Assembly (NCBI GenBank): GCA_003220225.1
Contig: QHRU01000038.1
Coordinates: 1-64,000 of the forward strand
Direction: 5' to 3'
Length of the DNA: 64,000 nucleotides
DNA from: Candidatus Rokuibacteriota bacterium
Lineage (GTDB): Bacteria; Methylomirabilota; Methylomirabilia; Rokubacteriales; CSP1-6
Of this stretch, positions 15,321 to 20,726 are shown piece after piece (positions within the stretch are counted from its first letter, which is position 1; each line of letters begins with the position of its first letter). The notes beneath the pieces are model-generated. The model ran no database searches. It was not told where the DNA came from and saw only the letters and a program-made list of their open reading frames with translations. A program made the position numbers and the translations under genes.

Positions 15321-16778
15321 CTAGGCCTTCGCCTCCAGGGGAAATCCCGCGTTCGCCCACGACCCGAGCCCGCCCTTGAGGATGCGCACGTTGTGGAAGC
15401 CGAGCTGTCGGAGCCGCAGCGCCACACGGGCGCTGGTCATCTCGTCGGGTCAGGTGCAGTAGGCGACGACGACGCGGGAGGGATCCGCCGGCACGCTGGT
15501 GCCGTCGGCGAGCGCATCGAGGGCCACGTGGACCGAGCGCGGAATGCGGACCGGGCTGCGCGCGTAGGCATCGGAGGCGCGCACGTCGAGAATCGTCGGC
15601 GGCTCGGGCCCTTCGATGAGTCGCATGACCTCCGCGGGACGGATGCGGAAGCGGTTGCGCTGCCAGCGGCGGAGCAGCAGCGCCGCCCAGCCCGCCGCGC
15701 TGACGACGAGCATGCCGATCGCCACCTGCGTCCACGGCAGGAGCGGCTCGCGCTTGAGGCGCTCGGCGTTCTCGATCGTCATCCGCCGCACGTCCGGCAG
15801 GTCCGGGAGCAGCCGGTTGGCCTCCATCAGCTCCGCGCGCGCGCGGCGGTAGTTGCCGGCGAAGTGATCGCGCAGCCCCGCGTGCCACGCCGCGTTGAAT
15901 CGGCTCGGCTCGCCGCGCGGCACCGGCGTGCCCTCGAGAAATTTGGTGACCGCCGCCGACGGGATGACGAAGTTGAAGCCCTGGACGATGTTGCTCTGCG
16001 CGTCCGAGGAGAGCGTGACGAACGTGAGCACGCCGACGACCTCGCCGGCGTCGTTCACCGCCGGCCCGCCGCTGTTGCCCCACGCCGCCGACGCGTCCGT
16101 CTGGATCACGGGCTGATTCGCGCGATCCTGCTTGAAGCCCGAGATGGCGCCACCGGTGACCGACGCTTCCATCTTGGCCGACGCGTTCAGCAGCTCGTGA
16201 CTCAGCACGACGCCGGGAAAGCCGATGATGTGCAGGCGGTCGCCGATCCGTGCCTGCGCGGAGTCGGCGAGCGGGAGCGCCGGCATGTCGGCCGCCTCGA
16301 GCTTCAACAGGGCGAGATCCTGACCCGACATCGCCTCGCCGGCGACGGGCGGGCTGTACTTCACGACGATCGCGGGCATCCGCACGCCGTTGGCCAGGAG
16401 CACGGAGATCGACGGCTCGAGCTTCGCGCGCCCCGCCCCCGCCATACCGCCGCACGTCTGCTTGATCGCCTTCTGCGTCTGCTCCCGGGCCAGCCACTCG
16501 GGCGGATGATGGGCCGGCGACACGACGTGCCCGTTGGTCACGAGCCAGCCCGCCGAGGCGACGAACCAGCCGGTGCCCGTCTCGCGGAAGGGCGGCGGCG
16601 TCACGGTCGTCTCGGCGCCGGCGCCGCAGCGCACGGTGACCTCACCGCCGACCTCGGAGACCACGAGCGCGACAGCGGGCTTCGCGCGCAGCAACGCCTC
16701 TTGAAGGGAGAGCGCGGGCTGAGCCGTGGCGAGCGCGGGTGCGACCAGCAGGAACAGCGCGCCGATGAGACTGCGCAC
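15321..16778 (-). CDS. Periplasmic trypsin-like protease fused to rhodanese, with in-frame UGA (candidate Sec443)
   Basis: Read through the UGA, this is a 485-residue protein. GTG 16,778 is chosen because it directly precedes the signal peptide (RSLIGALFLLVAPALA). The DegP/trypsin-like catalytic triad is H84 (TNGHVV), D154 (SGQDLALLKL) and S236 (GNSGGP). A membrane segment spans about residues 348-371, and a rhodanese domain about 378-485. The rhodanese loop reads Y-C441-T-[UGA443]-P-D-E, where relatives commonly have YCxCP. The frame stays open for 42 more sense codons with normal rhodanese sequence (SARVALRLRQLGF, LKGGLGSWANAGFP) before TAG at 15,321. A 7-bp hairpin follows the UGA at SECIS distance. 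UGA replacing Cys plus the hairpin favours selenocysteine; a Cys-to-stop mutation or sequencing error is the alternative. Topology predicts the protease outside and the rhodanese inside the cytoplasm. Confidence 0.7.
15417..15435 (-). promoter_or_regulatory. SECIS-like hairpin downstream of in-frame UGA
   Basis: On the transcript CAGCGCC pairs with GGCGCUG around the 5-nt loop CGUGU. The stem begins 14 nt after the UGA (15,452-15,450), and the loop GU lies about 23 nt after it, within the usual range for bacterial SECIS elements. The stem also encodes the conserved SARVAL segment, so coding constraint alone could create it. Confidence 0.45.
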
Positions 16779-16794
16779 GAGCGCGATTGTAGCG

Positions 16795-16832
16795 GAAAAC
16801 GAAAGGCTCCAGGAGGTTGCCCTCCTGGAGCC
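16795..16832 (-). terminator. Rho-independent terminator of the SPRGQ-repeat gene
   Basis: A 12-bp perfect stem (GGCTCCAGGAGG / CCTCCTGGAGCC) with a TTGC loop at 16,805-16,832 is followed on the minus strand by TTTCGTTTTCC. It lies 27 nt past the stop codon at 16,859 and just before the protease-rhodanese gene, separating the two transcripts. Confidence 0.85.
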
Positions 16833-16858
16833 CTGATACTTCAGACGGCTGATTGGAG

Positions 16859-17752
16859 TTACTTCATCTCCGCCAGGGCCGCCTCGGCCTTGGCCTTCGC
16901 CGTCGTCATGTCGCCTTTCGCGCACGCCGCCTCGGCCTCCTTCACGAGGTTGAAGGCCTTGCTGGCACCCGCCTTCGAACCGGCGAGCGACCGCGGCGAC
17001 TGCACATCCTGACCACGCGGGCTCTGGATGTCCTGACCGCGGGGGGACTGAATGTCCTGGCCACGCGGGCTCTGGATGTCTTGACCACGCGGGGACTCGA
17101 CACGCTGGCCACGCGGGCTCTGAATGTCCTGACCGCGCGGGCTCTGGATGTCCTGACCACGCGGGGACTCGACACGCTGACCACGCGGGCTCTGGATGTC
17201 CTGACCACGCGGGCTCTGGATGTCCTGACCACGCGGGCTCTGGATGTCCTGACCGCGCGGACTCTGGATGTCCTGACCACGCGGGCTCTGAATGTCCTGG
17301 CCACGCGGGCTCTGGATGTCCTGGCCACGCGGGGACTCGACACGCTGACCACGCGGGCTCTGAATGTCCTGACCGCGCGGCGACTGAATGTCCTGGCCAC
17401 GCGGCGACTCGATCTGGCGCGCACCCGCGAGCGAGCGTGGCGACTGAATGTCCTGGCCACGCGGGCTCTGGATGTCCTGGCCACGCGGGGACTGGATGTC
17501 CTGACCACGCGGGCTCTGGATGTCCTGACCGCGCGGCGACTGGATGTCCTGGCCACGCGGCGACTCGATCTGGCGCGCACCCGCGAGCGAGCGCGGCGCC
17601 TGGACGGTGTCAGCCTTCGCCGTCCGCATGCTCAGCTGTTCCTTGGCCTTCGCGACTTCGGGCGGGCACGACGCGGTCTGGGCCTCGACGGTCGCCGTGG
17701 CAAACGTGGCGATCGCGAAGGCGCTCATCAAGCCTGCAAGCACTCTCTTCAT
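16859..17752 (-). CDS. Secreted SPRGQ octapeptide-repeat protein
   Basis: A 297-residue protein with ATG at 17,752 and GGAAGGG upstream. A signal peptide (VLAGLMSAFAIATFATATVEA) is followed by a short helical piece with one cysteine (SCPPEVAKAKEQLS). About 23 near-identical octapeptides follow, mostly SPRGQDIQ, with SPRGQRVE and SPRSLAGARQIE variants. A helical tail with one cysteine closes the chain (AFNLVKEAEAACAKGDMTTAKAKAEAALAEMK). The two ends look like halves of a helical hairpin that could be joined by a disulfide, with the repeat as a long disordered arginine-containing insert. No known family was recognised. A strong terminator follows the gene, and it is divergent from the M16 peptidase pair. 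Confidence 0.8.
   Translation of the reverse strand: MKRVLAGLMSAFAIATFATATVEAQTASCPPEVAKAKEQLSMRTAKADTVQAPRSLAGARQIESPRGQDIQSPRGQDIQSPRGQDIQSPRGQDIQSPRGQDIQSPRSLAGARQIESPRGQDIQSPRGQDIQSPRGQRVESPRGQDIQSPRGQDIQSPRGQDIQSPRGQDIQSPRGQDIQSPRGQDIQSPRGQRVESPRGQDIQSPRGQDIQSPRGQRVESPRGQDIQSPRGQDIQSPRGQDIQSPRGQDVQSPRSLAGSKAGASKAFNLVKEAEAACAKGDMTTAKAKAEAALAEMK
16984..17604 (-). repeat. 24-bp in-frame tandem repeat array
   Basis: Tandem 24-nt units encode the SPRGQDIQ-type octapeptides. All units keep the reading frame, and third-position differences are few, suggesting recent expansion by slippage or unequal exchange. Variant units recur in a higher-order pattern: the RVE variant appears three times and the SLAG variant marks the two ends and one internal point. 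Confidence 0.9.
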
Positions 17753-18090: not shown

Positions 18091-19428
18091 ATGGTCCGGA
18101 TGGCGCCTCTCACTCTGGCGCTGGTGGCCCTCGCGATGAGTTGGGGATGCGGCGCCGTTCGGACCGTCACGCGGCCCGCGCCCACAGCGACCGGCCCGAC
18201 GCGTCACGTCCTTGCCAACGGCATTCCGGTCATCGTCCAGGAGCATCGCGGCAGCGACGTCGTCGCGCTGCAGTTGTGGGTGCGCGCCGGCGCGCGCGAC
18301 GAGAGCGCCGCCGAGCTCGGGCTCGCGCACTACCTCGAGCACATGCTGTTTCGCGGTACCACGTCCCGCCCGAGCGGGTTCGTGGAGCGCGACGTCGAGG
18401 GCGTCGGCGGCCGGATGAACGCCGGCACCTCGTGGGACTACACCTTCTATTACGTCACGCTGCCCGCGCGGCGCGTGGTGCCCGGGCTCGAAATGCTCGC
18501 CGACATCGCGGTGAACGCAACGCTCGACGCCGACGTGCTCGAGAAGGAGAAAGAAGTCGTCCTGGAGGAGATGCGCCTGGGCGACGACAATCCGCGCCGC
18601 CGGCTCGGGCGTCAGCTCTACACGCATCTCTTCGAGGGCCACCCGTACGGCCGACAGGTGATCGGTACGCCCGAGCTGGTCCAGGGCCTCACGCGCGACA
18701 CGCTCGCGAGCTTCTACCGGCGCCACTACATACCCGAGGCGTTCGCCGTCGTCGTCGTCGGCGCCGTGGACCCGCAGCAGGTGCTCGCGACCGCGGGCGC
18801 GACGTTCGGCCGGCTGCCGCGCCGGGGCGTGGCGCGCCTCCCCGTGGCGCCGCCGCCTGCATTCCGCCCGCGGCGCCAGCAGCTGACGCATCCGGGCACC
18901 CACGCGCACCTCGGCATGGCGTGGCCCGCGACGCGACTCGACCACGCCGACACGCCCGCGCTCGATCTCCTCGTCTCCATCCTCGGCGGCAGCCGCTCGT
19001 CGCGCCTGGTGCAGGCGCTGCGCGAGCGCGACGGGCTCGTCGTCTCCGTCGGCGCATCGTTCTCGGCGCTGGAGGGCGCCGGCGGCGTCACGGTGAGCGC
19101 TCAGCTGCCGCCCGCCAACCTCGAGCGCGCCGAGACGCAGATCCTCGCCGAGATCCGCCGCGTCCGCGACGCCGGTGTGACGGACGCGGAGCTGCGGCGC
19201 GCCATCACCGCGGCCGAGGCCGCGCACGAGTTCGAGACGGAGACAGCGGAAGGCCGTGCGACCGCGCTGGGGCGCGCCGAGACGATCTGGACGATCGAAG
19301 ACGAGCAGGCGTACGTCAATAGGATACGTTCGGTCACGGCGACGCAGGTGCGCGCGGTTGCCCGGCGCTACCTCGATCCCGAGCGGTACACGCGGCTGGC
19401 GCTCCTGCCGCCGGGAGGCGCGCGATGA
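18091..19428 (+). CDS. M16 zinc peptidase, catalytic subunit
   Basis: A 445-residue protein; ATG 18,091 or 18,100. The N-terminus has a hydrophobic export signal with a cysteine (MSWGC) that may be a weak lipobox. The zinc motif is H80-Y-L-E83-H84 in AHYLEHMLFRGT, with the distal glutamate in EKEKEVVLEEM about 75 residues later. A second inactive M16 domain begins near residue 240. These pitrilysin/processing-peptidase relatives degrade peptides in a clam-shell chamber and act in the periplasm when exported. It overlaps by 4 nt with a paralogue lacking the zinc site, giving the usual active/inactive pair. Confidence 0.92.
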   Translation: MVRMAPLTLALVALAMSWGCGAVRTVTRPAPTATGPTRHVLANGIPVIVQEHRGSDVVALQLWVRAGARDESAAELGLAHYLEHMLFRGTTSRPSGFVERDVEGVGGRMNAGTSWDYTFYYVTLPARRVVPGLEMLADIAVNATLDADVLEKEKEVVLEEMRLGDDNPRRRLGRQLYTHLFEGHPYGRQVIGTPELVQGLTRDTLASFYRRHYIPEAFAVVVVGAVDPQQVLATAGATFGRLPRRGVARLPVAPPPAFRPRRQQLTHPGTHAHLGMAWPATRLDHADTPALDLLVSILGGSRSSRLVQALRERDGLVVSVGASFSALEGAGGVTVSAQLPPANLERAETQILAEIRRVRDAGVTDAELRRAITAAEAAHEFETETAEGRATALGRAETIWTIEDEQAYVNRIRSVTATQVRAVARRYLDPERYTRLALLPPGGAR

Positions 19429-20726
19429 GGCGGGCGCTGCTCACGCTGGCCGTGCTCGGGGCGCTGGCGACATACGCCGCCGCGCAGCCGCCGGCGATCG
19501 TCCGCCACGTGCTGCCGAACGGGCTCGTCGTCCTCGTGCGCGAGGATCCGGCCGTCGGCGTCGTCGCCGCGTCGCTCCTCGTGCAGAGCGGCTCGGCCTT
19601 CGAGACCTCCGACACGGCCGGCGTGACGAACTTCCTGCAGCGGGCGATGCTGCGCGGGACGAGGCGCCACTCGGCCCTCGCGCTGGCCGAGGCGGCCGAG
19701 GAGCTGGGCGGCGCGCTCGACGCTTCGGGCGATGTTGACTACGCGGAGGTCCGCGGCACGGCGATCGCACGCCACTGGGAGGCGCTCCTGGCGCTGCTGG
19801 CAGAGGTGGCGCTCGAGCCGACGCTGCCCGCCGCCGAGATCGAGAAGGAGCGCGCGCTGATCCTCGGCCAGCTCCAGACGCGCGCGGACCAGCCGTTCCC
19901 GCGGGCCTTCGACACCGCGCTCGCCGACCTCTACGGCGGGCATCCCTATGCGTGGCCCGCGCTCGGGCGCGCCGAGAGCGTGGCGAGACTGACGCGCGAC
20001 GCGCTGCTGGAGCGCTACGCCGCCGCGTATCGTGCCGGCCGCATGGTGCTCGCGGTCGCTGGCGGTGTGCCGCGGCAGCGCGTGATCGCTGCCGCCGAGC
20101 GCCTGTTCAAGCGAGTGCCCGGCGCCGCGGCCGCCGCCGCGGGGCCGGTCCTCGAGGCCGCCCCGCGCGGTGAGCGCCGGCTCGTCGAGCGCGACGCGCG
20201 CCAGGCGCAGGTGCTCGTCGGCTTCCTGGCGCCACCGCTCACGCACCCGGACTACGCGGCGATGCGCGTGCTCGGCGCCGTGCTCGGCGGCGGGATGTCG
20301 AGCCGGCTCTTCGTCGAGTTGCGCGACCGGCGCGGGCTGGCGTACTCCACCGGCGTGCTGACGACGAATCGCGCGGGCCCCTCGCTGTTCCTGCCGTACC
20401 TCGGCACCGCGCCCGGCAACGCCGACGCCGCGGTCGCCGGCGTGCTGGCGGAGGTGGACCGGCTGCGCCGCGACCGCGTCGAGGAGCGCGAGGTGGCCCG
20501 CGCCAAGGCCTGGCTCCTCGGCAACCTCGCGATGGACCGCCGCACCAGCGCGCGCCACGCGTGGTACCTCGCGTTCTTCGAGCTGGTCGGCGGCGGCTGG
20601 GACTGGCCCGAGCGCTACGCGCGGGCGGTGGAGACGGTGACCGTCGCCGATCTCGCGCGCGTGGCCGAGCGCTACCTGGCGCGGCCGACGGTGGTCGTGT
20701 TGCGGCCGCCGGAGGCGACGCGGTGA
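19425..20726 (+). CDS. M16 peptidase-like protein, non-catalytic subunit
   Basis: A 433-residue paralogue with a signal peptide (LLTLAVLGALATYAAAQ). The position of the HxxEH motif reads NFLQRAMLRGT, so zinc ligands and the catalytic glutamate are lost. The rest of the fold is retained: EIEKERALILGQLQ, HPYAWPALG and VLGGGMSSRLFVELRDRRGLAYS. The last segment contains the conserved Arg-Gly-Leu-Ala-Tyr that helps bind substrate in such heterodimers. It should form a complex with the preceding gene product, to which it is coupled by an ATGA overlap. Confidence 0.9.
   Translation: MRRALLTLAVLGALATYAAAQPPAIVRHVLPNGLVVLVREDPAVGVVAASLLVQSGSAFETSDTAGVTNFLQRAMLRGTRRHSALALAEAAEELGGALDASGDVDYAEVRGTAIARHWEALLALLAEVALEPTLPAAEIEKERALILGQLQTRADQPFPRAFDTALADLYGGHPYAWPALGRAESVARLTRDALLERYAAAYRAGRMVLAVAGGVPRQRVIAAAERLFKRVPGAAAAAAGPVLEAAPRGERRLVERDARQAQVLVGFLAPPLTHPDYAAMRVLGAVLGGGMSSRLFVELRDRRGLAYSTGVLTTNRAGPSLFLPYLGTAPGNADAAVAGVLAEVDRLRRDRVEEREVARAKAWLLGNLAMDRRTSARHAWYLAFFELVGGGWDWPERYARAVETVTVADLARVAERYLARPTVVVLRPPEATR

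Follow-up and report, generated by a model that had tools for sequence, protein, structure and literature searches.

Selenocysteine (Sec)-containing rhodaneses with a CxU loop (form 3) are a selenoprotein family already described (PMC13188914), represented by the profile NF041203 (rhodanese_LYCAU), which covers 126 positions of a small protein. A Sec-rhodanese fused to membrane parts is the rhodanese/DsbD fusion-like selenoprotein TsoB (NF045694), which has two Sec residues in a UxxxxU motif. Selenoproteins annotated as proteases, trypsin-like, have been predicted from the GOS metagenome, among them a MucD protein with a CxxU motif (PMC2398784) that seems to correspond to the Trx7/PDZ entry in the 2026 selenoprotein review (PMC13188914). 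In the Methylomirabilota, 63 selenoproteins have been reported (Deng 2026, as cited in PMC13188914). Membrane-anchored periplasmic proteases of the DegS/HtrA type, for their part, are built on a trypsin-like domain with a catalytic triad.

The gene considered here lies in a window of 64,000 nucleotides (the whole stretch of DNA analysed) from a bacterium of the Rokubacteria group, which dwells in soil and groundwater. Its likely product (Table 1) shares with NF041203 the Cys-x-Sec register of the loop (AYCTUPDEMTSARVA, against LYCAUPSEATSARVA in the small protein) and a SECIS hairpin of the same place and shape, while adding a protease and a transmembrane helix. It scores 66.6 bits against that profile, below the curated cut-off of 115, and matches TsoB marginally (E 0.046). 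Its CTU stands in register with the CAU of two other loci, L211 and L212, and two full NF041203 members in related genomes have the same Sec register and hairpin. Like DegS and HtrA it has a trypsin-like domain with the triad; unlike them it lacks a PDZ domain, places the helix after rather than before the protease, and adds a rhodanese predicted to be cytoplasmic. Its Sec is in the rhodanese, whereas in the GOS proteins it falls inside the trypsin domain or in the CxxU motif. The same genome also has two genes for VTT (DedA)-rhodanese proteins, L223 (G000:C1:98015-98344) and L224 (G000:C40:3318-3653), with an in-frame UGA and the same hairpin. Such proteins agree with the fusion in Sec position and hairpin and likewise fall below the NF041203 cut-off; their N-terminal partner differs, a VTT membrane domain taking the place of the protease. 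Judged from these sequences, several membrane partners have been combined with a known Sec-rhodanese module, and the combination with a protease is a new architecture. In a further locus, L213 (G026:C266), each of two consecutive rhodanese frames has a UGA after YC(x), the first at position 1702 of the locus and the second at 2080, and the second UGA frame is without a canonical hairpin.

The sequence-only reading that drew attention to the gene had not recognized the fusion as a described selenoprotein. This holds for the architecture, since protease, transmembrane helix and rhodanese in one chain are absent from the 2026 review (PMC13188914) and from NCBIfam, an earlier listing elsewhere being possible; it does not hold for the Sec-rhodanese module, and because that module had been described (NF041203; PMC13188914) novelty is confined to the fusion and to the clade that has it. 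Neither 'protease' nor 'trypsin' occurs as a word in the review (PMC13188914), and rhodanese, protease, Rokubacteria and Methylomirabilota all go unmentioned in the deep-Sep paper.

Table 1. Positions of the selenoprotein gene, its parts and the selenocysteine genes (window coordinates unless a contig is named)
Feature	Positions	Strand	Remark
Predicted selenoprotein gene: signal peptide, HtrA-type protease, transmembrane helix, rhodanese with Sec443	15321..16778	-	GTG start, TAG stop; translated with UGA as Sec
In-frame UGA, putative Sec codon 443 (C441-T-U443)	15450..15452	-	UGA at this place in 51 fetched homologues
Trypsin-like (HtrA-type) protease domain, residues 68-250	16029..16577	-	Pfam PF13365, 1.7e-27
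Transmembrane helix, residues 349-375	15654..15734	-	AlphaFold helix 349-375
Rhodanese domain, residues 381-476	15351..15638	-	Pfam PF00581, 1e-11
Hairpin of the bacterial SECIS type (stem GCGCC/GGCGC; loop CGUGU, second nucleotide G)	15419..15433	-	conservation
selA	C5:17043-18137 (contig 5)		adjoins selB
selB	C5:15074-16951 (contig 5)		adjoins selA
selC, tRNA-Sec, anticodon TCA	C5:19682-19775 (contig 5)		close to selA and selB; in L111

Read on the minus strand from the GTG at 16778, the frame meets the UGA at codon 443, in the context YCT-U-PDE, and continues for 42 sense codons to TAG, just as the sequence-only reading had it. With Sec the product has 485 residues, over the whole of which homologues are collinear, and a Pfam scan of this read-through product returns Trypsin_2 and Rhodanese. 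Standard gene callers will stop the gene at the UGA, so that the second half of the rhodanese is lost. The hairpin too had been proposed at the outset, as a stem of 7 bp with a loop of five nucleotides: such a stem (CAGCGCC/GGCGCUG, loop CGUGU) does begin 14 nt past the UGA, although relatives retain its inner five pairs only (GCGCC/GGCGC, 15433-15429 paired with 15423-15419). This core, GCGCC-N5-GGCGC, stands at exactly +16 nt from the UGA in all 51 UGA loci, and answers the proposed check for a SECIS signal after the UGA. The loops of these loci (CGGGT, CGTGT, AGTGT, AGGAT, AGTAT) follow the pattern [CA]G[GT][GA]T, the second nucleotide being G and the fifth T throughout, and a G within the first two loop positions of a hairpin shortly after the UGA is what characterizes a bacterial SECIS element. 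Protein sequence and codon usage would by themselves yield the hairpin in about 4% of loci, that is some two of the 51, a figure to be read as a scale rather than as a P value because the loci are related and not independent. Better evidence comes from a control within the alignment: in the TGA set the hairpin codons Ser449, Ala450, Val452 and Ala453 show no synonymous variation, and codon positions 4-5 and 13-17 past the UGA vary synonymously in the usual way. One compensatory stem pair, C-G to U-A, occurs in the NF041203 selenoproteins. The folding energy of the single sequence is unremarkable in such GC-rich DNA (z = -0.5), and an Rfam search gave no SECIS match, only one weak irrelevant hit.

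Homologues, all of them from metagenome-assembled genomes (MAGs), were compared at 90 loci including this one, of which 89 can be read at codon 443: TGA in 51, Ser in 29, Thr in five, Cys in two, Glu and Ile in one each. The UGA/Cys alternation that had been named as a test of the Sec reading is thus there, with TGC in L054 and TGT in L083. That the non-Sec forms are mostly Ser or Thr instead of Cys is unusual for Sec/Cys pairs, and counts against the Sec reading. Every one of the 51 Sec forms has Cys441, as do 35 of the 38 others. The hairpin is found in no more than two of the 38 non-UGA homologues, L083 (TGT, Cys) and L048 (GAA, Glu); both give the impression of having left Sec recently, with the hairpin as a relic. 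Across 148 related genomes the protein was found in almost all genomes of the same family, most copies having exactly one in-frame TGA; when 84,980 named genomes were scanned, no fusion appeared outside Rokubacteria and related Methylomirabilota/NC10 MAGs, matches elsewhere covering the protease part alone. On a quick tree of 87 proteins, with a midpoint root only, Sec forms are scattered over several clades, and the Ser, Thr, Ile, Cys and Glu forms nest between them; repeated change would lead one to expect such interleaving. One large clade of Ser/Thr forms represents a paralogue that many genomes carry alongside the Sec form. In the present genome this is L121 (G000:C106:57281-58798), with protease, transmembrane segment, rhodanese and a terminal cyclic-nucleotide-binding (cNMP) domain; it has lost Cys441, the rhodanese Cys being replaced by Asp (YDTS). 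The family is thereby an unusually clean natural experiment, in which Sec, Cys, Ser, Thr, Glu and Ile forms coexist and the hairpin is present, lost or a relic, so that evolution into and out of Sec is directly readable.

The machinery for Sec insertion had also been set as a test, and selA, selB, selC and selD were all found in the same genome. ARAGORN detected no tRNA on the stretch L009, which stops before selC. The gene selD (L105, G000:C159:12780-13730) has an in-frame UGA of its own, followed by a 6-bp hairpin, CCUGGA-GAUC-UCCAGG. The features by which bacterial selenoproteins are recognized are therefore assembled here: a conserved in-frame UGA with conserved flanks, a hairpin, Cys homologues and the four sel genes, to which are added other rhodanese genes of this genome that have a UGA and the same hairpin. 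Taken together, the comparative data make it very probable that UGA443 is decoded as Sec by way of the hairpin 16 nt downstream, giving a membrane selenoprotein of 485 residues.

Competing accounts of the UGA fare poorly. If it were a true stop, the protein would have 442 residues and the frame beyond it would be a relic or a separate fragment. Of the 51 UGA-containing family genes, 19 do end in an ordinary UGA stop, a point in favour of this account. Yet the codons past the UGA, through LKGGLGSWANAGLPLE, are in frame and conserved in the UGA homologues, the hairpin and its codons are frozen, and Ser and Cys forms run through codon 443 without a break, leaving a stop very improbable. The same 19 genes bear in the opposite direction on the idea that UGA specifies a different amino acid, Trp or Cys, through suppression or a changed code: they end in UGA, and therefore the code is not reassigned and UGA is not a sense codon genome-wide. 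It is true that an open frame does not by itself tell which residue is inserted. However, a tRNA-Sec with anticodon TCA lies beside selA and selB, Trp is found at codon 443 in no homologue, and a position-fixed hairpin specifically marks this UGA, so that such decoding has very little likelihood. Least credible of all is an error of sequencing or assembly in a TGC or TGT codon, or a pseudogene. The sequence does come from a MAG, but the same UGA recurs in some 50 loci from many separate genomes and genera, which excludes a sequencing error, and the protease triad and the rhodanese are conserved. Homologues, hairpin, UGA-ended sister genes and sel genes thus led to the rejection of error, pseudogene, true stop and changed code alike.

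With regard to the protein, the protease domain has the catalytic His, Asp and Ser motifs, which were found in most members of the family. It had been likened to DegP; the HtrA-type assignment with its triad stands, but the nearest solved structures are those of DegS without its PDZ domain rather than of full DegP, and the Pfam scan of the fusion protein found no PDZ domain. In the AlphaFold model (mean pLDDT 87.7) the protease is followed by a small helical part, the long helix and the rhodanese. A positive flank of a membrane helix faces the cytoplasm (the positive-inside rule). Here the flank C-terminal to the helix, RRWQRNR, is positive, and in 87 of 89 relatives the C-terminal side is the more positive one; for this reason the rhodanese is predicted to be cytoplasmic, opposite the exported protease. 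Its active-site loop, CTUPDEMTS, lacks the Arg closing the CxxxxR loop by which rhodanese sulfurtransferases are defined. In rhodaneses the catalytic Cys directly follows the end of a strand, and in the model the last strand residue is Tyr440, with Cys441 directly after it. Profile alignment pairs C441 with the rhodanese catalytic Cys, whereas single-sequence alignment pairs U443 with it; predicted structure and profile thus favour C441 as the catalytic position, against U443 from the single sequence. Under either alignment Cys441 and Sec443 share one loop, and a Cys-Sec bond could form.

The sequence-only reading had suggested that proteolysis might be coupled to the sensing of persulfide or selenium. 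What such a chain does may be approached, tentatively, as a Cys-Sec loop sensor that switches a periplasmic protease. The signal peptide would export the HtrA-type serine protease domain to the periplasm, the single helix crossing the inner membrane and holding the rhodanese in the cytoplasm; there Cys441 would accept persulfide or an oxidant, Sec443 would resolve it by bonding to the Cys, and the helix would relay the condition of the loop to the protease and so switch it. In the absence of selenium, translation would stop at codon 443, keeping protease and helix and truncating the rhodanese. Because protease and helix precede the UGA, cells short of selenium should be left with a protease that has only half of its rhodanese, and the sensor half would thus be selenium-dependent. 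The single transmembrane chain and the paralogue with a cNMP domain suggest that conditions in the cytoplasm are signalled to the periplasmic protease; in favour of a cytoplasmic sensor, the cNMP-binding domain of the paralogue follows the rhodanese and so shares its predicted side of the membrane. That the persulfide, oxidant or selenium-supply state of the Cys-x-Sec loop specifically controls the protease, with shortage producing a truncated sensor, we consider rather unlikely. Were the coupling true, envelope proteolysis would be under an inside-out control that depends on selenium, and no such control turned up in those described selenoproteins that were checked.

The rhodanese half might instead be an enzyme of sulfur or selenium transfer, for example a persulfide carrier, with the protease merely co-located and no signal crossing the membrane. 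We give this, too, limited credence. Its fold lies near YgaP, GlpE and other sulfurtransferase-type domains (the neighbours among solved structures being 3ilm/Alr3790, 6mxv and the YgaP rhodanese 5hbo), and the same Sec-rhodanese module is found on the unrelated VTT/DedA membrane domain and also standing alone. By contrast, the Ser/Thr paralogues retain the fusion although some have lost Cys441 as well, and the domain therefore seems worth keeping without transfer chemistry; the additional cNMP-binding regulatory domain in the paralogue of this genome likewise speaks against a transfer enzyme.

Directly upstream, at 16859-17752 of the window (minus strand), lies a gene for a secreted protein of QDIQSPRG repeats with two conserved Cys, which has no match in Pfam or NCBIfam. 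Among the 33 Sec forms for which sufficient upstream sequence is available, 19 are preceded by such a gene, against none of the 25 Ser/Thr forms; the repeat protein is at most a candidate partner or substrate of the protease-rhodanese. No clear sulfur or selenium pathway is apparent among the neighbouring genes, and the search for operon partners left this single conserved neighbour, set apart by a terminator-like hairpin (16834-16803) in the intergenic window 16779-16858 (minus strand). One terminator-like site is about what shuffled sequence yields; the intergenic hairpin nonetheless recurs in relatives, as does the TATAGAAT-like box that comes after it, 7-10 nt ahead of the start codon. Hairpin and box together suggest a separate, leaderless transcription of the protease-rhodanese gene, its mRNA being predicted to begin at the start codon or right beside it. 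Beyond the repeat-protein gene and divergent from it, two adjacent M16 peptidases occupy 18100-20723 (plus strand) of the window.
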